A stretch of 24,480 bases of DNA, from IMG/VR virus record IMGVR_UViG_3300035698_002304, positions 1 through 24,480 of that record. One strand, written 5' to 3'. Shown piece after piece: positions 5,701 through 18,878 of the stretch. How positions within the stretch are numbered: position 1 is the first letter of the stretch; each line of letters opens with the position of its first letter. The translations under genes and the position numbers were made by a program. The notes below the pieces were generated by a model that was given only the letters and a program-made list of their open reading frames with translations, did no database searches and had not been told where the DNA came from. Source of the DNA: a virus.

Positions 5701-7484
5701 TTCTTTGATCCGGAAAGCAGGCTTTCAAGAGATTTAATTAGGTTCTCTTCGTTTATGCCTCTAACGATATTTTTACCGGCAATAGCAGATTCAACCGCTA
5801 AGCTTGTTATGCCGCCACTTGCTGCCGACCTAATAGCAGACTCAGAAACCTTTTCAGTGGCGCGCTCAATTTGACCGGCAAATGATGTAGGAGACGACGA
5901 CCCGAATAGTTTTTCCATCTCGTCCATCCATACGGTCTGCCTCAATATATCATCGTCAAACTTTGCGCCATACTTTTTAGCCATTTCCTGAATCCCGTTG
6001 ATGGACTCAATCACGGGAATACGATTTTTATTATGGCTCATTATTGTTCTTAGCTGGCCAGCTAACATTTTACCAGCGCCCAACGATTCTAAATCAAGTC
6101 TTTTACTGGCTAGACCTTTAAAGTCGTTTAGTGCTTTAACAGTATCGGAAAACTTTTTATTTGCTTCTGCATATGGCTTTGAAGCTGCGACAAGAGTGTC
6201 GTTAATATCCTTGCGAAGTGATTTAAGTACCGCGTCACCCTTTTTTAGAATAGGGCTTACCGTACTTAGCTTGCCTTGCTCAACAGATCCATCAATAACT
6301 TTTTTCAACCTGTGCGCTGACAAGCCGCCAATATTAGGGTTTTGTGCCCTAACTAAAAAATCATCAAGAGCGCTTTGCGTTCCTGTTGATCTTGCGAACT
6401 CTGAATTAGAGTAATTTCCTTTTGGCTTTCCGTTCTTAGTTGTAAACGTTACCCCTAGATCCTCCAACTGAGCTATATAGTTATTATAAGCCTGCGTAAG
6501 ATCAACCTTCTTATTGCCAAGTTTTTCTGCTGCACGCCCGACTGCTTTACCAGCGTCCTTATTTATACTTTCAAGAGTCTTGACCTGCCGAAACAGTACG
6601 TCCCCAGCGGCATCACCTGGGCGGTTAGCTAGCGCGCCAAGCTTACCTTCGGCCGTCTGCCGCTTGTTATCTTTCAGAGTCTTGAGTGATCGACGCATAC
6701 TAATAATATCAGCTTTTGTCGAGGTTCTAACTAAGTCAACTAAGCCCTCGTCCACACCTTGCGCGATCGCTTTTTTAGCGGCTGAACTGCTTACATTTAT
6801 CGAAGATGACGCTGGCGACTGACCAGCAAAACCTTTTATCTGGGTGTCATCCGCATTCTTTGCAATCAGCTCGGATACCTTGGCCCTTGTCGGCGTTGCA
6901 GCCCTAAAGGTCATATTTATCGGTGGTTTGGTTGCCATTGCAAGCGCCTGTAACTCCGCAAGCGGCGGAATAGCAGCCAGTGGAGCAAGCGTTTCACCAA
7001 CCGATTTGGTAAAATCTTTACCCGCCTCAGATTCCGGCGTGTTTGTTAGCTGGCCTGATCGTTTCATTGCTAGAGCTTCGATTCTGTTGGCCGCTTCATT
7101 TGTCCCAAAGTCTCCGCCAATCATTTCTCTGCCAATACCTTCGATCGTTCCGGCAGCCTGACCCAAGAGGCCAGTCGTGGCACCCGTTCCAACCGCAAGC
7201 GCCGTCTCACCTATTCCTGATAGCGTCTCGCCAAATGTTCTTGCTGGCTTCTCTGTTTTAGCTGGCAGCAACTCACCTGGCGCCATGTCCAAAGCTTCAA
7301 GAGCCGAAGGTGTTCTTTCTACTCTCTCTGAACCAGTTATGCTTTCGGCTTGAGCTGGAGCGCCTTGCTGTTGCTGAGCAAAAAAATCAGCACCCATCTT
7401 CTGTGCCTGCTCGGGCGTAGTTTCTTCGGGAACCTCGAATCTAGCAACTCTTCCATCTGGCATTTGGTAGCGTGCAACTGGCAT
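5697..7484 (-). CDS. Putative ejection/internal virion protein, 595 aa
   Basis: The N-terminus (MPDGRVARFEVPEETTPEQAQ pattern, residues 8-28) matches a short module common at the start of phage structural and ejection proteins. A Glu/Pro-rich linker follows, then a Gly/Ala-rich hydrophobic stretch (about 88-125). The rest is a long, mostly helical, Lys/Ala-rich body (about 190-555). Another Ala/Gly-rich hydrophobic segment (SAASGGITSLAVESAIAG, about 555-572) lies near the C-terminus. Large helical proteins with membrane-active ends, encoded just before the tailspike, occupy the slot of P22 gp16, which enters the host with DNA and helps it cross the inner membrane. Function is inferred from position and composition. 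Its ATG overlaps the previous stop (TAATG at 7482-7486). Confidence 0.65.
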   Translation of the reverse strand: MPVARYQMPDGRVARFEVPEETTPEQAQKMGADFFAQQQQGAPAQAESITGSERVERTPSALEALDMAPGELLPAKTEKPARTFGETLSGIGETALAVGTGATTGLLGQAAGTIEGIGREMIGGDFGTNEAANRIEALAMKRSGQLTNTPESEAGKDFTKSVGETLAPLAAIPPLAELQALAMATKPPINMTFRAATPTRAKVSELIAKNADDTQIKGFAGQSPASSSINVSSSAAKKAIAQGVDEGLVDLVRTSTKADIISMRRSLKTLKDNKRQTAEGKLGALANRPGDAAGDVLFRQVKTLESINKDAGKAVGRAAEKLGNKKVDLTQAYNNYIAQLEDLGVTFTTKNGKPKGNYSNSEFARSTGTQSALDDFLVRAQNPNIGGLSAHRLKKVIDGSVEQGKLSTVSPILKKGDAVLKSLRKDINDTLVAASKPYAEANKKFSDTVKALNDFKGLASKRLDLESLGAGKMLAGQLRTIMSHNKNRIPVIESINGIQEMAKKYGAKFDDDILRQTVWMDEMEKLFGSSSPTSFAGQIERATEKVSESAIRSAASGGITSLAVESAIAGKNIVRGINEENLIKSLESLLSGSKK

Positions 7485-8551
7485 TATTCAAACCCCAAAA
7501 ATTTAACTTGCTGACCTTGGTTTGGCTGGGCGCCTTGCTGATTGGAATCTGTACCCGCCTTACGCTTAGCTCGTCGATTAGCCATAAGCTTTGGAATGCT
7601 TGCGCCATCCTCCGAGAGGAAAATTCCAGCCTCCTCAAGCGAGCTAAGCAACCTCTCTTGCTTTTCTATTCTCTCGTTAAACCAAGCTTTCAAATCCTCT
7701 CCATTGAGATTTGGCGGTACAGCAGTATCAAATGCTGTTTTAAGTTCGGATGCTGATAATGCGCCAAAGGTGACAGATGCAATAACATCCAAGCCCAATC
7801 TATTCTCAAGGTTTTTAAGCTTAACGGTCGATGCCTTGAGCGATGGTAGCCATTTATTTATAGGGCCAACGTTTGCGCCCTCATCGATCAAGGCCACACC
7901 TTCGCGCATGTTCGCTATATTTTGTTCTACATTATCTATTCGCCCGAATATTTCAGTAGATAGCGATGCAGCATCTTTAGCTAAAAGCTTTTGCTTTTCA
8001 AGATTTGGGGCGAGCCGAGTTTCAACATTTAGCTCCGCTTCCTTCTTGGCGCCTGCACGCGCAGCCGCCTCATTTGCAAGCGACCTACGATCATCAATGG
8101 TTTTTTCTTGGAGGCGTAATCTTTCACGCTCCAAGAAATTGCCCTCATCAACTTTAGGCGCAAACTGACCTAGTGAGCGCTCCATTCTGCCAAGAATCGC
8201 ATCATTAGGAGCTGGCGCCAAAGGATCAATACCAAACGAGCTGATAGCCTCCGCGTTCTGCTGAATAATAAACGAACGTTCTTCCTCTGGTACAGACTGA
8301 AGCTGTTTGATTAATGAGTAAGCCTGCGAACCTCTGGCAAACTTATCTTTCTGTGCTTGATCTTTCTGAAGTTGAGCGGCTTCGATCTGCTGACGTTGCG
8401 CCAAAGCCTCGCCCTGTTGCACGCGCTGACCAAGCAGCTGCTGCATTAAAGGCGCTTGCTTTAACGCTGTGCCGGCTCTCATGCCAGACTCTAGAGCCTG
8501 CATAAGGTTAGGAACTCGAGCTTGTAGCGGAATATTAGGATCTAATGGCAT
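7484..8551 (-). CDS. Putative DNA-ejection protein, 355 aa
   Basis: This Gln/Ala/Glu-rich, predominantly helical protein is consistent with an internal virion protein. Residues 30-75 are dense in Gln (LMQQLLGQRVQQGEALAQRQQ), and residues about 150-215 form a long charged helix likely to coil (ERLRLQEKTIDDRRSLANEAA). The C-terminus is low complexity with Gln, Asn and Gly. No enzyme motif, signal peptide or membrane segment is visible. It lies between the tandem MSF-type proteins and the 595-residue protein and is coupled to both by overlapping stop-start codons (TAATG). That matches the P22 gp7-gp20-gp16 ejection block in order, but I cannot assign a one-to-one equivalent. Confidence 0.65.
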   Translation of the reverse strand: MPLDPNIPLQARVPNLMQALESGMRAGTALKQAPLMQQLLGQRVQQGEALAQRQQIEAAQLQKDQAQKDKFARGSQAYSLIKQLQSVPEEERSFIIQQNAEAISSFGIDPLAPAPNDAILGRMERSLGQFAPKVDEGNFLERERLRLQEKTIDDRRSLANEAAARAGAKKEAELNVETRLAPNLEKQKLLAKDAASLSTEIFGRIDNVEQNIANMREGVALIDEGANVGPINKWLPSLKASTVKLKNLENRLGLDVIASVTFGALSASELKTAFDTAVPPNLNGEDLKAWFNERIEKQERLLSSLEEAGIFLSEDGASIPKLMANRRAKRKAGTDSNQQGAQPNQGQQVKFLGFE

Positions 8552-9318
8552 TATAATTTACTCATATCAACGATGTCGTAACCGGATTCATGCACGGATA
8601 CAGCACCAGGGTTGATGGTTTTAACCTCGTCCGACATAGGGCCAATATACCATTGATCGGAGTCCTTATATTGAAATTTGTACGTTTTATAGGGGCCGCT
8701 TACTCCGTGCGAAGATATGTTTCTTTTCAATCGTCTGTCACAGAAAATAGTGGCCATCAAGGTTGCAATGTTTTGTGCGCCTTCCGCCTCGGCATTTGCG
8801 GAGCCTACAAGCCCGCCAGCCGAAGCATTACCAATTTGTGTAAGCAAGTCGCTTGCACCCTGACCCGACTGCAATCCACCAGCACCTTGCTGAGCTGCCG
8901 AAGCCTGACCCAAGCTAAGCGAGCTTAGTAAGTCGCCACGCTGACGAGAAAGGAAGTCTGATCCAAGGCTTGCAATACCCGACTGAATAGCTAGCGGCGT
9001 CTCTCCCGTGCCTACGCGCCCTCCAGCAGCTTGACGATTAAGGATTTGTTGTTGCTGCCGATTAGCCAATGCTAAAAATGCTGGATCTTGCAGAGTTTGC
9101 TGCGCTCCACCCTGCCCGAAAGCTGCACCCGCTTGACCTACCAAATCATTACCAACACCAACAAAAGGGGCAAAGCCCTCTTCTAGTCGTGCCAGTGATT
9201 GGCGATTAACGTCCAAACCTTCCATGCCCAACCTAGCTTGAACTGCTGCTGCCTCTTTGGCTGCCTCTGATCCGGCCTCACCTGTAAAGCCGTCCGCTAC
9301 ATCCTCGAGAAAACTCAA
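8551..9318 (-). CDS. Internal virion protein with S74-like C-terminus
   Basis: The first 190 residues are Ala/Gln/Gly-rich and parallel the protein encoded just upstream (LEEGFAPFVG; SRQRGDLLSSLSLGQASAAQ; SDLLTQIGNASAGG). From residue 192 a different domain begins: F-C-D-R-R-L-K-R-N-I, then YKTYKFQYKD, WYIGPMSDEVKTINPGAV and a terminal DIVDMSKL. This is the pattern of the peptidase S74/endosialidase intramolecular chaperone domain, which helps trimers fold and then cuts itself off using a Ser-Lys pair five residues apart. Here Cys193 and Lys198 occupy those places. The domain is about 63 residues, short for the family. The start is TTG 9318, supported by overlap with the previous stop (TTGA), GGGGGTGG upstream, and an N-terminus (MSFLEDVADG) matching its paralogue (MSFAEDAAGG). 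Confidence 0.72.
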   Translation of the reverse strand: MSFLEDVADGFTGEAGSEAAKEAAAVQARLGMEGLDVNRQSLARLEEGFAPFVGVGNDLVGQAGAAFGQGGAQQTLQDPAFLALANRQQQQILNRQAAGGRVGTGETPLAIQSGIASLGSDFLSRQRGDLLSSLSLGQASAAQQGAGGLQSGQGASDLLTQIGNASAGGLVGSANAEAEGAQNIATLMATIFCDRRLKRNISSHGVSGPYKTYKFQYKDSDQWYIGPMSDEVKTINPGAVSVHESGYDIVDMSKL

Positions 9319-10025
9319 TTTCCACCCCCAAAACTACTACCTAAGGCCGCTAGACCGCCAATTAAATTCTGCGCCCCCTGGCTTTGTGCGTTTGATGCAC
9401 TAATTCCACCGGCTGCAATAGAGTTTCCTATTTGCGTAAGAAGATCAGACCTGTTGGCGCCCGTCTGTAGATTTCCAGCAGCTACTTGAGCTGCAGAAGC
9501 TTGACCTAAACCGATACCGCTCAACAGGTCGCCACGTTCACGACTAAGCATTTGAGGAGATAGGGCTAGCTGTCCTTGCTGAAAAACGCCAGCATTAGGA
9601 TTAACGAAAGGATTGGACGAAGCTGATTGATTGGCAAACTGCATAAGATCGACAATATTTTGACTGTTGCCGGCGGATTGAGATACGTCGCCAGAAAACA
9701 AGTCTTTGAAGCCTGGAATTATATCTGTACCAAACCCAACGAAGGGCGCTAACGTATCTTCAAGCCTACGCTGTGCCAAGTCTTGCTCGACAATTGCAGC
9801 CCTGCCTGCTGATTCCTGATTTGCCGCCGCCTCTTTGGCTGCTTCTGCCGCCTCTGAACCCGAAGCCTGCTCCAGCTCTTCTGCAGGCGAATCAATACCA
9901 AGCAGGTCACCCTGAAACTCACCACCAAAACTAACTTGGTCTACGTCTTCCCAGCTACCGTTGCCGGTAAATATATTTTCATTGGCGTCAAGCAATCCGC
10001 CAGCGGCGTCCTCTGCAAAGCTCAT
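9315..10025 (-). CDS. Internal virion protein, paralogue without S74 domain
   Basis: This 236-residue Ala/Gly/Ser/Gln-rich protein shares blocks in the same order with the next gene: MSFxEDxAxG at the start, GSEAAxxAAKEAAA (about 56-68), LAPFVGFGTDI (about 92-102), LSRERGDLLSGIGLGQASAAQ (about 160-180), and SDLLTQIGN with GAQNL near the C-terminus. It has an extra acidic insertion at about residues 14-55 and ends SSFGGGN where the neighbour continues into its S74-like domain. Composition and position suggest a small ejected or internal protein. Its ATG overlaps the upstream stop (ATGA). Confidence 0.68.
   Translation of the reverse strand: MSFAEDAAGGLLDANENIFTGNGSWEDVDQVSFGGEFQGDLLGIDSPAEELEQASGSEAAEAAKEAAANQESAGRAAIVEQDLAQRRLEDTLAPFVGFGTDIIPGFKDLFSGDVSQSAGNSQNIVDLMQFANQSASSNPFVNPNAGVFQQGQLALSPQMLSRERGDLLSGIGLGQASAAQVAAGNLQTGANRSDLLTQIGNSIAAGGISASNAQSQGAQNLIGGLAALGSSFGGGN
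9325..9329 (-). promoter_or_regulatory. Shine-Dalgarno supporting TTG start at 9318
   Basis: GGGGG within GGGGGTGG lies six bases upstream of the TTG start of the S74-domain protein and helps explain use of this rare start codon. It sits inside the final Gly codons of the upstream gene. Confidence 0.5.
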
Positions 10026-12759: not shown

Positions 12760-14180
12760 GGTTTGCCACACTCACGCACATAGATAGCTGCGTTATTAAG
12801 TCCGAACGCTGTATCTTCGGTATACCGTATACGACAGGTTAAATCTTTAAACTTCTGATTACTGTAAACCTCTACTATTTCCAGGTAGTCACCATCGCCA
12901 CCAAGATTAGGCCAGTATTCACGACCGTAATTCCTGCCGCCATCAAACGAAAATTGTACGATCATCTGTGGATTTGACGTAACGCCAACACCCGTATCAA
13001 CAGCAAACTGAACAAGCTTCATCTGCATGTAGGCGCGAATAGCTCCCGCATTTTTTCCTGAGAACGGTCTAAATACTCGCTCCCTAACCTTCTGAACAGA
13101 GTTATCGTAATAAGTATCCTCATCTAAGCTGTAAATATTGCCACCCGATATATCACCAAACAGCGTCTTATCAAATAGGTAAGCGGCTGTCTTGCCGATG
13201 TATTGAGATACTGGCACTGTGCTATTAATCTGAAACCATAGATTCGTCAGCTCCGAGAATATCCACGTAACGCCAGGAGATGGGAAAAAGTACCCGACAA
13301 TGCTTTGACCTTTGTACTTCCAGCTATCAACGTATGCGCCTGTGGCGTCGTAAGTCTCGAACAGCTCAGCTATACCGAAGTTGCTCTCAGTTAGGTTTTG
13401 AGCCTGAAAGCTAACCAACCTATACGGTAATTTGTCAGCACTTAAAAAATACATTGCATCGTTCGTAGTGGACACGCAGAACTTATTTAATATCCCCACG
13501 TCTTCAATTATAGCGCCGTTCATTCTTTGAAGTGGAGGATTACCCTCGCCCGTATCTTCCCACGGCTCAATAGATCGAGAGCCGCAATTGAACACGACCT
13601 GATTAAAAACCTTTAAGCCAACAAGATCATCAGGAAGGCTTTCGGCCTGATAAACATTAGAGCCGTCAAAGTTAGTCGTGCCTACGTCCGACACCCACAC
13701 CTGGCCAGTGCTATCCAACACCAAAAACTTGAGGTTTATATACTCCAAATCAACAGGAGTAAACGAGAGTGTTAGCGACGTTATATTGACGCCATCAAAG
13801 CTATAGAGCGTTGACCCGCCAAGTATCAGCATGACAATACCGTTGTCACTCATGCGGGCGATTCCAGCGCCACCAATTACGCCAACGGATGTTTGTACGC
13901 CTACCGCATCAAACGAATAAAGAGTATTCCCGGATACTTTCCACCCCTTACCCAAAAACTTGCGCTTATAGATTCCTCTATCTGCCTCGCCAGCAACGCC
14001 AGCACTAAATATCTTTAGACCGCCATAGCTTAATAGCGCGGCACTATCGGTTAACGAGTTAGGAGCTGGCACAACTATCATATTAGCCGTGCATTGGACA
14101 GACAGATCCTTACTTGACGATATGAGCGAATCACCGGCAATGGAGTATGGAACCTTATTGAATGACGTTGATACCGGCAT
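12756..14180 (-). CDS. P22 gp10-like packaged-DNA stabilisation protein
   Basis: At 474 residues this is almost the same length as P22 gp10 (about 472), the tail hub protein that closes the portal channel and holds the DNA after packaging. Shared features include a beta-propeller-like series of strands with repeated LYSFDAVG/LYSFDGVN motifs, the block YQAESLPDDLVGLKVFNQVV followed by FNCGSRSIEPW (P22 gp10 has a similar AESQPDGIIGI...GSSTIEYF run), and near the end FSFDGGRNYGREYW and DLTCRIRYTE. Neither a signal peptide nor a membrane segment is seen. It follows the adaptor gene with a TAATG overlap, the same gp4-gp10 order as in P22. Confidence 0.85.
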   Translation of the reverse strand: MPVSTSFNKVPYSIAGDSLISSSKDLSVQCTANMIVVPAPNSLTDSAALLSYGGLKIFSAGVAGEADRGIYKRKFLGKGWKVSGNTLYSFDAVGVQTSVGVIGGAGIARMSDNGIVMLILGGSTLYSFDGVNITSLTLSFTPVDLEYINLKFLVLDSTGQVWVSDVGTTNFDGSNVYQAESLPDDLVGLKVFNQVVFNCGSRSIEPWEDTGEGNPPLQRMNGAIIEDVGILNKFCVSTTNDAMYFLSADKLPYRLVSFQAQNLTESNFGIAELFETYDATGAYVDSWKYKGQSIVGYFFPSPGVTWIFSELTNLWFQINSTVPVSQYIGKTAAYLFDKTLFGDISGGNIYSLDEDTYYDNSVQKVRERVFRPFSGKNAGAIRAYMQMKLVQFAVDTGVGVTSNPQMIVQFSFDGGRNYGREYWPNLGGDGDYLEIVEVYSNQKFKDLTCRIRYTEDTAFGLNNAAIYVRECGKP

Positions 14181-14806
14181 TATGGCGTAGCCCCCTCTGT
14201 TCTCATTGCAGCACCCGGCCCGTACCTGCCTTTTTTATCTAGTTTATTCGCCCCCTTAATGGAGTTAATAAATAGCTGATAATAATACGACGCCTTTTGT
14301 TCTTCCCCATTAAATAGGTTTACAGCCCACATCGCCCCATACAAATAGATAGTTGGGAACTTGGTAAGCACTGCGTTGGCTGTGTTCGTATCATCCAGCG
14401 CCGCAACCTTGGCTAGATAGCTAAGCTCGACTACATACGATGAGTCTGCAATTCTATCGAATTCAATCTGATCTGTAACGGTGAAGAACTTGGGGCGTCC
14501 AGCGGCTGAGTACGACTGCATTGATTCAGGTGTTGCGTAGAGAATATCTTGATCTTTACCGGGAAGCTTTAGGCGTACCCTGCGCAGATTAATGTAGTCA
14601 GTCGGTAGCGCCAGGTATGGAGTGGATGTGCTGGAGGTGTATTCTGTTACGTTCTCAAGAGAGCGAAGGTTAAGCGTAGTTGCTGCGTTCGCGTACATCT
14701 CCGATTCACATAGAATAATAGCGTCATCAACAATATCGGTGACGCTACTAGACCCATCCAATCGAACGATCGTTTCTTTTAAGTTTGAATAATTATCAAG
14801 TGCCAT
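14180..14806 (-). CDS. Adaptor/head-tail connector protein
   Basis: This 208-residue protein fits the phage adaptor family found in SU10-type and other podoviruses, which docks under the portal as P22 gp4 does. It opens with an N-terminal helix pair (NYSNLKETIVRL and VDDAIILCESEMYANA), then LRSLENVTEY, YLALPTDYINLRRVRLKLPG (about 64-83), a GRPKFFTV segment (about 102-109), strands around DSSYVVELSYLAKVAALDD, and FPTIYLYGAMWAVNLFNGEEQKASYYYQLF near the C-terminus. The spacing of the L-P-x-D-Y, G-R-P and Y-L-Y-G-A elements is what I rely on. The C-terminal tail is basic (KLDKKGRYG). It starts one base after the methyltransferase stop. Confidence 0.8.
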   Translation of the reverse strand: MALDNYSNLKETIVRLDGSSSVTDIVDDAIILCESEMYANAATTLNLRSLENVTEYTSSTSTPYLALPTDYINLRRVRLKLPGKDQDILYATPESMQSYSAAGRPKFFTVTDQIEFDRIADSSYVVELSYLAKVAALDDTNTANAVLTKFPTIYLYGAMWAVNLFNGEEQKASYYYQLFINSIKGANKLDKKGRYGPGAAMRTEGATP

Positions 14807-14807
14807 T

Positions 14808-15320
14808 TCATAGAGCCTTTACGATGACCACAAAACCGCTAGGCGTATGGGTCATTTGATGAATATGAAACCTATTCCACAACTTAGGAAGCCACCAAAT
14901 GTAATCTTCTTGCGTTAGGTGCGCATTCCTGCCATCACTTAGAACCTTTACCGCTGGGCCTGTATGTATAGTGAAGAAACCATACTCCAATGTTACACGC
15001 TTTAGATCATCAAGAACACTATCCAAATGTTGAGGCTCAATATGTTCTAAAACATCAATGCAGGTCACAAACTGGCTAGGGTCTGGCGTGTCGCTATAGT
15101 CAGGCATTGCGGGATCATACATCTGTATTCTTACCGCTCTGCTCGGCTGTATCGACTTAGCTAGCCGCCCCTTTCCGGCACCATAATCGAGCATCTCATC
15201 CACTTTAAGTGTGTCGATAACGCCAGACACCATAGGTGCGAACGAAACGCTAGCAACACCGTAATTAGGATTCTTATGTAGAGTTTCCTGCTCTTTCCTG
15301 TACTCCTCACTTATAAGCAT
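14808..15320 (-). CDS. Class I SAM-dependent methyltransferase
   Basis: The protein (170 residues) has the methyltransferase core: motif I LDYGAGKGRL (about residues 44-53, SAM-binding glycine loop), an acidic residue ending the next strand (MYDP, about 67-70), and motif IV-V CIDVLEHIEP (about 87-96) as in many small-molecule, sugar or O-methyltransferases. The family is compact and there is no target-recognition domain, which argues against a DNA methylase. No D/N-P-P-Y motif is present. A strong Shine-Dalgarno (AAGGAGG) lies nine bases before ATG 15320, inside the preceding glycosyltransferase gene. Next to two glycosyltransferase-like genes, it may methylate a sugar or a lipid-linked glycan, which is inference. 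Confidence 0.82.
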   Translation of the reverse strand: MLISEEYRKEQETLHKNPNYGVASVSFAPMVSGVIDTLKVDEMLDYGAGKGRLAKSIQPSRAVRIQMYDPAMPDYSDTPDPSQFVTCIDVLEHIEPQHLDSVLDDLKRVTLEYGFFTIHTGPAVKVLSDGRNAHLTQEDYIWWLPKLWNRFHIHQMTHTPSGFVVIVKAL

Positions 15321-15975
15321 AATTCATAGCCTCCTTTTCCTTAAACCATTCATCCGCATATTCTTGATTCTCATAGCCCTCAAAGCAGGGCGTACCCAAA
15401 GTAAAGTGAACAATGTTTGCGTGAGGATTTGGGGCTGACTCGCCCACCAAATGATTCCATGATGGCCCAAGCTCTCCAACTCGATCAGCATTAGCCCACT
15501 CAAATTGGTGTAGATATTTACCGCTGGCACCATTAACCACTTCAGGCGTTAAGCGTCGACAAGCTGAGTTGAAGTTATTAAATACCATCATGCTAGACCA
15601 ATTTTTCTTCGGGTAAACATGCTGATCATTGCCCAGAAACTTCTTTCCCTTTGATGGAGTGTAATCGTGCTTCACAACGAACACATCGTGCGTTAAGTCG
15701 CACTCCGCCAGCAGCTCCGACAGATCGCACCGAACCAACATATCACAATCCATAAATATAGACTGCCCAACGCTCCCGCTCAAATGAGGAGTAAGGAACC
15801 GAGAGAATGAGAATTCCGTACTCCCGTCCTCTTTGCCTCGGGTAAACTCAGGAATGTTCTTTTTGTTGATAGGGGTAAACGACACCGGCTGACTACAGCG
15901 CGACAAAATAGAGTGACATAAAACATGGTATGCCACAGTCTCAGCAGGATCATAACCAATGAATACCTTAAGCAT
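15307..15975 (-). CDS. GT-A type glycosyltransferase (GT8-like)
   Basis: The 222-residue protein begins with a Rossmann-type strand (LKVFIGYDPAETVAYHV) and carries a D-x-D motif in QSIFMDCDMLVRCDL (about 71-85, Asp76 and Asp78), where GT-A enzymes bind the metal and nucleotide-sugar. Further family-like blocks are KNWSSMMVFNN (about 124-134), WNHLVG (about 173-178) and VHFTLGTPCFEGY (about 189-201). It should transfer a hexose-type sugar from a nucleotide donor, with the acceptor unknown. There is no membrane segment, so it acts in the cytoplasm. It overlaps the methyltransferase by 14 bases and the 97-residue gene by 8 bases, so the three are translated together. Confidence 0.8.
   Translation of the reverse strand: MLKVFIGYDPAETVAYHVLCHSILSRCSQPVSFTPINKKNIPEFTRGKEDGSTEFSFSRFLTPHLSGSVGQSIFMDCDMLVRCDLSELLAECDLTHDVFVVKHDYTPSKGKKFLGNDQHVYPKKNWSSMMVFNNFNSACRRLTPEVVNGASGKYLHQFEWANADRVGELGPSWNHLVGESAPNPHANIVHFTLGTPCFEGYENQEYADEWFKEKEAMNYAYK
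15330..15336 (-). promoter_or_regulatory. Strong Shine-Dalgarno for methyltransferase
   Basis: AAGGAGG (minus strand) lies nine bases upstream of ATG 15320, within the 3' end of the glycosyltransferase gene. It is among the best matches to the anti-Shine-Dalgarno sequence that I noticed in the late operon and suggests efficient, independent initiation. Confidence 0.65.
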
Positions 15976-16261
15976 TAGTTGCTTTGCTCCATAAGTCTTT
16001 AGCTACAACCATAGGGATTCCCTTGCCGAACTTCCTGTACCAATCGCTGAAATTGTGATTCTCCCTGATCACAGTCTCCATCGTTGCAATTATCTGGCGC
16101 TGCTTCCAGGTGTAAGACTTAGGCTCATCGACAGGGGGAGACAATAGAATCTGCTCCTCCTCGATAATCTCTTCCTCTACATTAATCCCGCGCTTTCTAA
16201 GTCTGGCTATCATTCTCGATAACCCTTCGTAATCTTCCGGCTGTTTCTTTCCATCGCTCAT
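15968..16261 (-). CDS. Hypothetical cassette protein, 97 aa
   Basis: This small soluble protein sits between the two glycosyltransferase-like genes. It has a charged N-terminal helix (MIARLRKRGINVEEEIIEEEQ), a Pro-rich break, and a C-terminal helical part rich in Trp (YTWKQRQIIATMETVI, DWYRKFGKGIPMV, LWSK). The start chosen, ATG 16261, overlaps the preceding gene by 65 bases. A later in-frame ATG at 16213 would reduce that to 17 bases and leave 81 residues. I do not recognise the family. A partner or adaptor of one of the enzymes is a reasonable guess, from location only. Confidence 0.6.
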   Translation of the reverse strand: MSDGKKQPEDYEGLSRMIARLRKRGINVEEEIIEEEQILLSPPVDEPKSYTWKQRQIIATMETVIRENHNFSDWYRKFGKGIPMVVAKDLWSKATNA

Positions 16262-17525
16262 GTTTTAGTTGCCTTATAAGTTTAACTGAATTATACCAGG
16301 GGAAATCACCGCTAGTATGATACCTGTATCCAGGCTCTGAAGGGACCAGTACATAACAAGGAACACCGAGAGCCCCAGCGATATAAACGACAGTAGTGCA
16401 GCACGTAATAACATAATCTAGCTCTGAAATTATAGCCGCAACAAGGTCTATATCATTCCCACCCGCCGTTTCATCATAAACCTTTAACTTATATTTATCC
16501 TGAATTTCAGCAGATACCGCTTTATATTCAAGCGATATGTATGTGTTTTCATCGCTGAACACACTGGCAAAATCCTCAAGATCTAACGAGCGCTTTTTCT
16601 CACCCGTGTTCTTTATTCCGCCACGCCAAGCAACACCAACTTTCTTTCCCTTGAATGTATCGAATAAAGCGCGCCACTGAATGCGCCGCTCACCGTTAGC
16701 CACTAAGTATGGCGTACCTGGGAACGAATCATCATCACGCCTATAGTAATTCGGTAGCTGGCCAATCGCACACTGATAATTAAACTCCCTGTCAGCCGCC
16801 CTAGATTCAACCTTAAACCTATCTCCGTACACCTCACAGCCAAATGACCGAGAGAAGAGTCTTTCAAGGCGCGCATCACAATCGAATATAACCTTGTTAG
16901 TCTTCCTGAGATCAGCAATGCACGAGGCGTACATTATCTCGTCGCCAACACCCTGCTCACCATAAACCAAAACAGTTCCTTTCTCGCCATTCCATTCAGG
17001 CGCACCGTAATCCCTGGCCTCTCGATGCTTTACGCCAAGCGAGCTATTAAAATCCTCCCAGCCTCCCCAATCTCTAAGCATTAGCCTTGCAAGGCCTCGA
17101 TTATGTAGCGCTCCCTGCGTGTCACCACCGGCCTCGATAGCTATATTGGATAACTCTATACATTTAACCGGATTGGCCGCCTGTAGATGCATCAGGGCGC
17201 TATTAGCCAATGCTCTATAGTTCTTCGGGTTGAGCTTGAATGCCTTCTCGAAGAACCTCTGAGCCTTAGACGGATCATGCTCTTCAAGGCACATGCCCAT
17301 GTTCGACCAGATGTCGCTCATATCTGGGCGGAGTTGTGCGCATCGCTGATATATCTGATAAGCAAGGCCGTAACGTTCTGCCTGCATCATTATGTAACCC
17401 GTCATAAACAGCGCCATTTGGCCGTCTTGAGAGTCGAAGGATTCGTTTAGTATTTCATTGCAGATGCGGAGCGCCTCGTCTGGCTCCGTTTCAATGATAG
17501 ATTTAGCGTAGAGTAATTCTTGCAT
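16197..17525 (-). CDS. TPR-domain glycosyltransferase
   Basis: Residues about 35-165 contain tetratricopeptide repeats, the clearest being AYQIYQRCAQLRPDMSDIW and FFEKAFKLNPKNYRALANSA. The second half (about 185-425) is a GT-B-like fold related to heptosyltransferase and O-GlcNAc-transferase-type proteins: VLVYGEQGVGDEIMYASCI (about 185-203), KVGVAWRGGIKNTGEKKRSL (about 295-313), and ISELDYVITCCTTVVYIAG with ALGVPCYVLVP (about 366-395), the usual nucleotide-sugar site. TPRs in such enzymes bind the protein acceptor, so modification of a virion protein is attractive but unproven. I place the start at ATG 17525, preceded by GAGGAG and 19 bases after the previous stop. The longer frame would need TTG at 17600. 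Confidence 0.8.
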   Translation of the reverse strand: MQELLYAKSIIETEPDEALRICNEILNESFDSQDGQMALFMTGYIMMQAERYGLAYQIYQRCAQLRPDMSDIWSNMGMCLEEHDPSKAQRFFEKAFKLNPKNYRALANSALMHLQAANPVKCIELSNIAIEAGGDTQGALHNRGLARLMLRDWGGWEDFNSSLGVKHREARDYGAPEWNGEKGTVLVYGEQGVGDEIMYASCIADLRKTNKVIFDCDARLERLFSRSFGCEVYGDRFKVESRAADREFNYQCAIGQLPNYYRRDDDSFPGTPYLVANGERRIQWRALFDTFKGKKVGVAWRGGIKNTGEKKRSLDLEDFASVFSDENTYISLEYKAVSAEIQDKYKLKVYDETAGGNDIDLVAAIISELDYVITCCTTVVYIAGALGVPCYVLVPSEPGYRYHTSGDFPWYNSVKLIRQLKHERWKETAGRLRRVIENDSQT

Positions 17526-17544: not shown

Positions 17545-17871
17545 TTAGATTCGATCGACAGTAAGCAGAGCCTTATAGTCGCGTTGTAGTATTTTCTCAA
17601 TCTTAGGAAGATCGTCTTTGTTCTGCCAGTTAAGGTGATATTTTAACAGAATTTCATGCAAAACAGTATTAGGTACGCGGGCAAAATGGTACATGTCGTT
17701 CTTTATGCCTTGGCGCTTATAGTTGCTATCGTTAGCTAATCGTTTAGCTGTATCTAGATGCTGTCGTATATCCTGAGTTTGAGAGATTACAAAATTACCA
17801 GACGTTCCGCCACCTTCAAACCATGTGCTAGTCTTAGTATGCGGGTCGTAATCCATGAATCGTTTAGACAT
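17545..17871 (-). CDS. Conserved phage protein after major capsid, 108 aa
   Basis: The protein starts KRFMDYDPHTKTSTWFEGGG and continues with FVISQTQDIRQHLDTAKRLAND, IKNDMYHFARVPNTVLHEILLKY and a C-terminal DYKALLTVDRI. The order Y-D-P...T-x-x-x-F, D-x-x-x-x-L-D-x-x-K-x-L-x-N-D, then x-A-x-V/I-P is one I associate with a small family encoded next to phage capsid genes, of unknown function. It is soluble and mostly helical. It lies 38 bases behind the capsid gene, after a terminator-like hairpin, so it should be made at a lower level than the coat protein. GGTG precedes ATG 17871. Confidence 0.68.
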   Translation of the reverse strand: MSKRFMDYDPHTKTSTWFEGGGTSGNFVISQTQDIRQHLDTAKRLANDSNYKRQGIKNDMYHFARVPNTVLHEILLKYHLNWQNKDDLPKIEKILQRDYKALLTVDRI

Positions 17872-17880
17872 AAATACACC

Positions 17881-17903
17881 GAAGAAATGGCCCCCGAAGG
17901 GGC
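17881..17903 (-). terminator. UUCG-loop terminator behind major capsid gene
   Basis: On the minus strand GCCCC-TTCG-GGGGC forms a 5-bp G/C stem (17903-17890) with a C(UUCG)G tetraloop, one of the most stable RNA loops, followed by CATTTCTTC. It begins just after the capsid TAA (17912-17910). The T tract is interrupted, so partial termination or RNA stabilisation is likely, boosting coat relative to downstream genes. Confidence 0.65.
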
Positions 17904-17909
17904 TTAAGA

Positions 17910-18878
17910 TTATGAGGTTGTACAGTCAGTTACTTTACCGCTTGCTGACTCGTTATTAACTTCTAACGTGTACTCTGCTGTGATCAATGTCTTATCTGAA
18001 TCACCAGTTTTAGCTAGGTCGTCAAATTCCATGTCGCGCAACATCGCCACACCAACATACTCCATATCAAGAACAAGAGCAGTTTCGTCACGCTGAAAGC
18101 GGTTAGGGACAACCTTTAAGATGCCAAAGTTTGACTTGTAGAAGTCTACAGCGCCCATCAATGTAACGTCTTGACCTGAATTAGCGTCTGTTTGTAACGT
18201 TGATATGCCACTAAAACCAGATACAGCAGACCGATTGAACGGGCCAACCATGATAGTTTTAGGATCACCACCTTGAGTCCAACACTTCTGAATAACATCA
18301 TCCAATGAAGCCTTGGTAAACGCACCGAGAACAGTTGAATCGGTAGGTGCAGCAACGGAACCACCAGAGAAGCCTGGGGTAGTTTGCGCAACACCAGTAC
18401 CAACCGAAGTTTTGTTAGTTGACAACCACGACTCAAGTGAAGCCAATGAGCGAGCAGTTGTCGCGCCGCCAGATGATGAAGCCTGGTTGCGAGTCAATGC
18501 GTATTCCATATCACGTTTTATTTCACGTCCACGCTTAGCCACTTGATAAGCAAACTCATCAGAACGACCAGCACTGTCCACACTGCGCTGAGTGCCTGAA
18601 ACAGATACAGTCTTGCGAGAGATCTGGCAGTAGTTGCCTACTCGAGTAGTTGCAGAAAACGTATTAGCTGTAGCGTCGTCACCTTCAACCTGGCGGTTAG
18701 TGCCAGCAGCTTCTAACGCATCTGTTTGCCACTCATGGTAAACAGCAGTAGCTTTGGATTTCTTAGCCTCGGATAAAAACGGGGTATCCATTGGGCTGAT
18801 ATCATAAATTGCATTTGCAAGATCTTCCCGGTTACCTACCGCAGCGGTAGTTGTTACAGTATTGGTTGGAACAGTCAT
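17910..18878 (-). CDS. Major capsid protein, SU10-type
   Basis: The 322-residue product resembles the SU10-type major capsid family (HK97-fold coat proteins, also seen as DUF5309). Typical features are the N-terminal NREDLANAIYDISPMDTPFLS (about 16-36), YHEWQTDALEAAG (about 47-59), a GNYCQISRKTVSVSGTQRSV strand, the FAYQVAKRGREIKRDMEYAL spine helix (about 109-128), a Ser/Thr/Gly-rich loop (about 131-185), TIMVGPFNRSAVSGF, and the strands NFGILKVVPNRF and ALVLDMEYVGVAMLRD. The order scaffold-capsid and the large late operon support the call. AAGGTG precedes ATG 18878. A UUCG hairpin follows it, fitting a highly expressed gene. Confidence 0.9.
   Translation of the reverse strand: MTVPTNTVTTTAAVGNREDLANAIYDISPMDTPFLSEAKKSKATAVYHEWQTDALEAAGTNRQVEGDDATANTFSATTRVGNYCQISRKTVSVSGTQRSVDSAGRSDEFAYQVAKRGREIKRDMEYALTRNQASSSGGATTARSLASLESWLSTNKTSVGTGVAQTTPGFSGGSVAAPTDSTVLGAFTKASLDDVIQKCWTQGGDPKTIMVGPFNRSAVSGFSGISTLQTDANSGQDVTLMGAVDFYKSNFGILKVVPNRFQRDETALVLDMEYVGVAMLRDMEFDDLAKTGDSDKTLITAEYTLEVNNESASGKVTDCTTS

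Follow-up and report, generated by a model that had tools for sequence, protein, structure and literature searches.

The four genes between the head genes and the head-to-tail adaptor gene of the virus studied here probably form a module that glycosylates a head protein of the late operon, a reading to which we give a probability of about 0.65. A TPR-containing glycosyltransferase (TPR-GT) would add the first sugar, a second glycosyltransferase (GT-A) would extend the glycan, and a methyltransferase (MT) would cap it. The analysed DNA, referred to below as the window, is a genome fragment of 24,480 bases (IMG/VR virus record IMGVR_UViG_3300035698_002304). The analysis itself shows four things: the gene order, the folds, the active-site motifs, and the conservation and exchange of genes in the interval between capsid and adaptor, here called the slot.

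The late genes lie on the minus strand in the order terminase, portal, 95-aa gene, scaffold, capsid, 108-aa gene, four cassette genes, adaptor and P22 gp10-like head closure. The major capsid protein is of the SU10 type (17910..18878; PF17236, 1.1e-98). The left border of the slot is the gene for a 108-aa head-region protein (17545..17871; phrog_3982), and the right border is that for an SU10-type head-to-tail adaptor (14180..14806; PF24175, 7.5e-20). Between them, all on the minus strand, stand TPR-GT (16197..17525; 442 aa, ATG at 17525), a 97-aa ORF (15968..16261), GT-A (15307..15975; 222 aa) and MT, a class I SAM methyltransferase (14808..15320; 170 aa). These genes overlap by 65, 8 and 14 nt, and the gaps are 19 nt to the 108-aa gene and 1 nt to the adaptor gene. 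The initial annotation had the four genes and their overlaps exactly right, but it placed them in a P22-like structural order. Portal (PF23899, 1e-174), capsid and adaptor all match SU10 families above the Pfam cut-off and follow the SU10/LUZ24-type order. In Pfam the capsid protein matched SU10_MCP only, with no match to the P22 coat family PF11651, and the sole P22-like gene (gp10/Hc3-like) is the one that follows the adaptor gene. Because portal, capsid and adaptor fall in SU10 families, we assign the phage background to the SU10/LUZ24 type and not to the P22-like one.

The G+C content of the cassette genes (0.45–0.47) is the same as that of the capsid gene and of the window, and hence gives no sign of recent insertion; on the grounds of equal G+C and vertical inheritance we reject such an event. 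A GC-rich hairpin, GCCCCTTCGGGGGC, is found on the minus strand at 17890-17903, directly after the capsid stop and ahead of the 108-aa gene, a position from which it could reduce expression of whatever lies downstream of the capsid gene. We do not claim it as a regulator, because scanning the operon for terminators and promoters gave the same counts as shuffled sequence. Elsewhere in the window, two adjoining genes (8551-9318 and 9315-10025; 255 and 236 aa) appear paralogous on visual inspection, and a terminal stretch of the 255-aa product (CDRRLKRNI...) resembles an S74-type chaperone end.

TPR-GT consists of a TPR array (approximately aa 1–150; Pfam TPR_2, 4.8e-8) and a GT-B domain (approximately aa 179–442), and its AlphaFold2 model has a mean pLDDT of 92.2. 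In structure comparisons of this model, the TPR part has a fold like that of OGT/CTPR (Z 17–20). The GT-B domain has a GT9-type fold, matching the GT9 structure 3tov with Z 17.0 and an rmsd of 3.2 Å over 247 residues, and the GT9 enzymes WaaC and WaaF with Z of about 17. For the whole chain, the best fold matches are O-GlcNAc transferase and SPINDLY, with a loose superposition (rmsd 13 Å and more). TPR-GT shares with these GT41 enzymes the layout of an N-terminal TPR array and a C-terminal GT-B domain, whereas its catalytic domain superposes compactly on GT9. Profile searches gave no match to the GT41 catalytic domain, Pfam at E values up to 1 returning TPR-type families alone, and Pfam Glyco_transf_9 was likewise unmatched at E up to 1. 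Because TPR-GT matches neither family in Pfam, we describe it on the basis of its modelled fold as GT9/OGT-like and file it in neither GT9 nor GT41. The chain shows no evident transmembrane-type segment; its most hydrophobic stretch sits within the modelled GT-B fold.

GT-A matches phrog_28018 (4e-49), and its modelled structure (mean pLDDT 92.7) resembles GT8 enzymes, with Z 17.6 and an rmsd of 2.6 over 187 residues for 3tzt and Z 17.6 for LgtC. It shares with 3tzt, LgtC, glycogenin and the capsid glycosyltransferase of PBCV-1 (2p6w) a common fold, a DxD motif (D76/D78) and a metal-His motif (H190-x-T-x-G-x-P196), at a sequence identity to the GT8 structures and 2p6w of 10–19%. D76, D78, H190, T192, G194 and P196 are invariant across 45 GT-A sequences. 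Because the score against Pfam Glyco_transf_8 (E 0.0036, 17.4 bits) is under the curated cut-off of 24.3 bits, we call GT-A, from its model, a DxD glycosyltransferase with a GT8-like fold and not a GT8 enzyme. MT passes Methyltransf_23 (3.6e-7; 30.5 bits against a cut-off of 27) and matches the methyltransferase family phrog_24759 (1.2e-18). These profile matches, folds and motifs bear out the enzyme identities proposed at the outset (TPR plus GT-B-like, DxD GT-A, SAM methyltransferase). The 97-aa ORF fell into no family in profile searches of Pfam and PHROG, and a search of viral contigs (DNA-pattern scan plus tblastn) yielded no relative.

To place the locus among its relatives, we searched IMG/VR using GT-A, the capsid protein and TPR-GT as queries and assigned gene labels from our own profiles; 160 related contigs yielded 73 dereplicated SU10-type contigs with both capsid and adaptor. 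A glycosyltransferase lies between capsid and adaptor in 62 of the 73, a share that is no census because 9 of the 11 contigs lacking one are GenBank records fetched for comparison. In a subset picked by capsid similarity alone, the fraction was 17/19. Within the slot we counted 126 glycosyltransferase genes versus 2 outside it, numbers that are biased because slot genes served as seeds for the glycosyltransferase and methyltransferase profiles. When unassigned slot ORFs were scanned independently with Pfam, the matches were to FkbM and other class I methyltransferases, GT9, a DegT sugar aminotransferase, SPASM, NUDIX and HNH endonucleases; among 116 sampled ORFs outside the slot, three glycosyltransferase-type families were each matched once, possibly by a single protein. 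Given the DegT aminotransferase and SPASM among these jointly scanned slot ORFs, certain phages may synthesize a special sugar of their own. A glycan-building module in the head operon, as first suggested, is upheld, and its position is conserved and specific among the 73 relatives.

Of the 73 dereplicated phages, 48 have TPR-GT, in every case within the slot, and in 47 of them it is the first gene after the capsid and 108-aa genes. The capsids of these phages form one clade (support 100/98), and therefore much of the association between TPR-GT and the slot reflects a single evolutionary event. TPR-GT is a fixed gene of this lineage, not a stray insertion. The genes that follow it vary: GT-A is present in 36/48 and the MT family of the window in 23/48, each missing or replaced in the others, and the 97-aa ORF occurs in the window alone. 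TPR-GT may be followed by GT-A and MT, by MT alone, by another glycosyltransferase, by GT-A with one GT-B gene or two, sometimes alongside another methyltransferase, or by no further gene matching the profiles. This variation rules out a strict four-gene unit, and the inserted, movable cassette of the initial annotation must be given up in favor of a lineage-fixed first gene with changeable successors. What the comparison of relatives did preserve is the location of TPR-GT, which in these 48 phages is always the capsid-adaptor slot. In a sister group (14/73 contigs), the slot instead holds a single, unrelated GT-A enzyme (phrog_1574, with weak Anp1 and GT2 matches), joined in one contig by a GT11-type gene; TPR-GT and this enzyme occur together in 0 of 73 contigs. 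A cultured phage, Microcystis phage Mel-JY34, likewise has one phrog_1574-type glycosyltransferase adjacent to its capsid gene. The slot is therefore a site of exchange for different glycan genes, and its fixed, glycan-specific character, with two unrelated solutions, supports glycosylation of the virion.

Relatives with no slot glycosyltransferase have the order capsid, 108 aa, adaptor, and the bare arrangement of capsid, small gene and adaptor is seen in PaP3, Ss1, Venkman and MJing1. The 108-aa gene is conserved in nearly all relatives, cassette or not; it is a conserved head-region gene, not a member of the cassette. At the corresponding position, Sinorhizobium phage phiM5 has a small gene whose product is annotated as being in the particle proteome. 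The phiM5 slot (7346-8656 of its contig, L164) holds a GDSL/SGNH hydrolase, also annotated as detected in the particle proteome. In three contigs without a slot glycosyltransferase (L108, L135, L162), two small proteins (∼115 and ∼94 aa) of decoration-protein-like composition lie between capsid and adaptor, possibly another capsid dressing. Two further contigs (L192, L204) have long slots with many additional genes.

Phages of three other capsid types, namely Phage_cap_E, HK97 and the P22-coat type, also have GT-A homologues just behind the capsid gene. In the Phage_cap_E and HK97 phages, the homologue is on the same strand and mostly 0.4–5 kb downstream of the capsid gene, the exceptions being two cap_E contigs (L044, L075) in which it lies upstream; in another contig (L071), a sialyltransferase-like gene separates capsid and GT-A. 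One phage of the P22-coat type has GT-A last in a group of glycan genes ending at a DnaT_2-family protein. HK97 and cap_E phages are intermixed on the GT-A tree, and hence GT-A has changed capsid type and kept its place. In Tetraselmis viridis virus S20 (NC_020840), an extended cluster of glycan genes, one of them an MT homologue, separates the head genes from head closure; a portal with a head maturation protease, and sialyltransferase-like enzymes in place of TPR-GT, set this virus apart from the window. The recurrence of the GT-A family behind capsid genes of other types, together with the S20 cluster, argues for a virion target. So does sequence conservation: median identity to the window is 68% for GT-A, the same as for the capsid protein (68%) and above portal (52%) and adaptor (42%), with values of 62% for MT, 54% for TPR-GT and 31% for the gp10-like protein.

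Homologues are not confined to head operons, which weakens the case. In a different phage group (L041, L051, L053, L057), GT-A and TPR-GT homologues lie beside replication genes of the primase-polymerase type, accompanied in L053 by a TylF-like methyltransferase. Caulobacter phages carry homologues after their tail genes. Two cultured ones whose host is C. crescentus CB15, CcrBL9 and CcrColossus, have a GT-A homologue; in CcrBL9, a giant phage, the MT homologue adjoins it, and the region, which lies between tail and lysis genes, also holds a sialyltransferase-like gene (L326, 13706-18195). Those of Mosig and DLP_6 are located away from head genes as well. Bacterial chromosomes have homologues clustered with several TPR-GT and methyltransferase genes, which are a plausible source of the phage genes. 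The neighbors of bacterial GT-A, in Betaproteobacteria and others, include signalling, secretion-ATPase and regulatory genes, and no clear acceptor such as flagellin was found in the ten neighbors scanned.

These homologues, the few phage examples outside head operons and the bacterial clusters alike, are what would be expected if the enzymes acted late in infection on lipopolysaccharide, capsule or a protein of the host surface, keeping progeny off debris or excluding other phages, with the head operon merely a convenient place. The folds can be read in the same way, as that of GT-A is shared by the lipopolysaccharide enzymes LgtC and WbbM and the GT-B domain resembles the lipopolysaccharide heptosyltransferases WaaC/WaaF. 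We nevertheless consider this unlikely, given that the cassette is without membrane anchors or flippase genes, that TPR arrays suggest binding to a protein, that conservation of GT-A equals that of the capsid, and that the place beside capsid genes is kept across four capsid families. The overall interpretation offered at first, which favored the virion over a host-surface glycan, stands to this extent, shorn of the movable unit and the P22-like order.

A site behind the capsid gene may also simply be tolerant and well transcribed, and this too weakens the virion reading. The slot would then be a cargo site behind a strongly expressed gene, holding glycan genes whose targets differ by phage, and the HNH homing genes, the phiM5 hydrolase and the small unknown proteins found there fit such a picture. 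Against this, glycan genes dominate the slot and TPR-GT is never lost within the sampled clade, and we regard the idea as improbable. That the enzymes glycosylate modified bases of phage DNA, as do other phage glycosyltransferases such as the T4 alpha- and beta-GT mentioned in PMC13216743, is very improbable, since neither the late, head-linked place nor the TPR architecture suggests a DNA target and the folds match GT8 and GT9/OGT.

With glycosylation of a head protein as the preferred reading, the TPR domain would hold the acceptor, either the capsid protein or the 108-aa neighbor, in the cytoplasm while the GT-B domain attaches an initial sugar at Ser/Thr; GT-A would then use a nucleotide-sugar donor to add another, and MT would cap the glycan. 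Given that TPR-GT is fixed and the later genes vary, this is the simplest scheme. We infer the virion acceptor, the order of steps and the methyl cap from the arrangement of the genes, and the same is true of any benefit, which might lie in particle stability, adsorption or hiding of the capsid. If the first enzyme is kept and the later ones swapped, then the particles of relatives would differ in outer sugars on one conserved attachment. In the capsid, the candidate acceptor loop spans aa 163–170, with TTPG[FY] at aa 166–170 (TTPGF in the window); a relative with a solved structure is 9ny2. Ser/Thr is present at positions 166 and 167 in 94% and 89% of the TPR-GT clade, versus 8% and 8% outside it, making T166/T167 a correlated candidate acceptor from one clade only; this correlation counts as a single event, because the TPR-GT phages form one capsid clade. 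As for a distinctive capsid insertion in that clade, the only differences were one extra column near aa 174 and the difference in the loop. A bolder version, which we put forward tentatively and think rather doubtful, is that the capsid-adaptor interval is a dedicated glycosylation slot in many tailed phages, with TPR-GT reading the capsid via its TPR array and glycosylating T166/T167, and with downstream swaps giving serotype-like coats.

To our knowledge, a sugar coat on a phage's own particle has been experimentally shown for few phages so far. Citing Freeman et al. 2023, PMC11256854 and PMC12619734 describe the mycobacteriophages Che8 and Rita as bearing glycans on major capsid and tail proteins; phage-encoded glycosyltransferases are held responsible, and the glycans are reported to shield against antibodies. 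In Maravista, a relative of Che8, the glycosyltransferases are placed near the 3′ genome end (PMC11256854). Both systems involve phage-encoded glycosyltransferases; the putative one described here differs in the capsid-adaptor slot and the TPR-GT. Since phage virion glycosylation is already known from the mycobacteriophages, the TPR-GT/slot arrangement would be a variant of it. Neither a TPR-glycosyltransferase nor a glycan slot between capsid and adaptor turned up in the podophage literature, in a search that covered few subscription journals. The closest studied architecture appears to be that of FlmG of Caulobacter crescentus, a 596-aa protein with N-terminal TPR and C-terminal GT-B parts that carries out cytoplasmic O-glycosylation of flagellins, a self-assembling protein, with pseudaminic acid (PMC7591256). 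TPR-GT has the layout described for FlmG, in 442 aa. This likeness and the lack of a transmembrane-type segment further support glycosylation of a virion protein.

If the proposal is correct, sugar-coated particles would be common in environmental podophages and would be made by a few exchangeable enzymes encoded beside the capsid gene. It predicts mass shifts of the capsid protein in cultured phages, and it would bear on the survival of phages outside cells, on their binding to surfaces and hosts, and on their recognition by antibodies.
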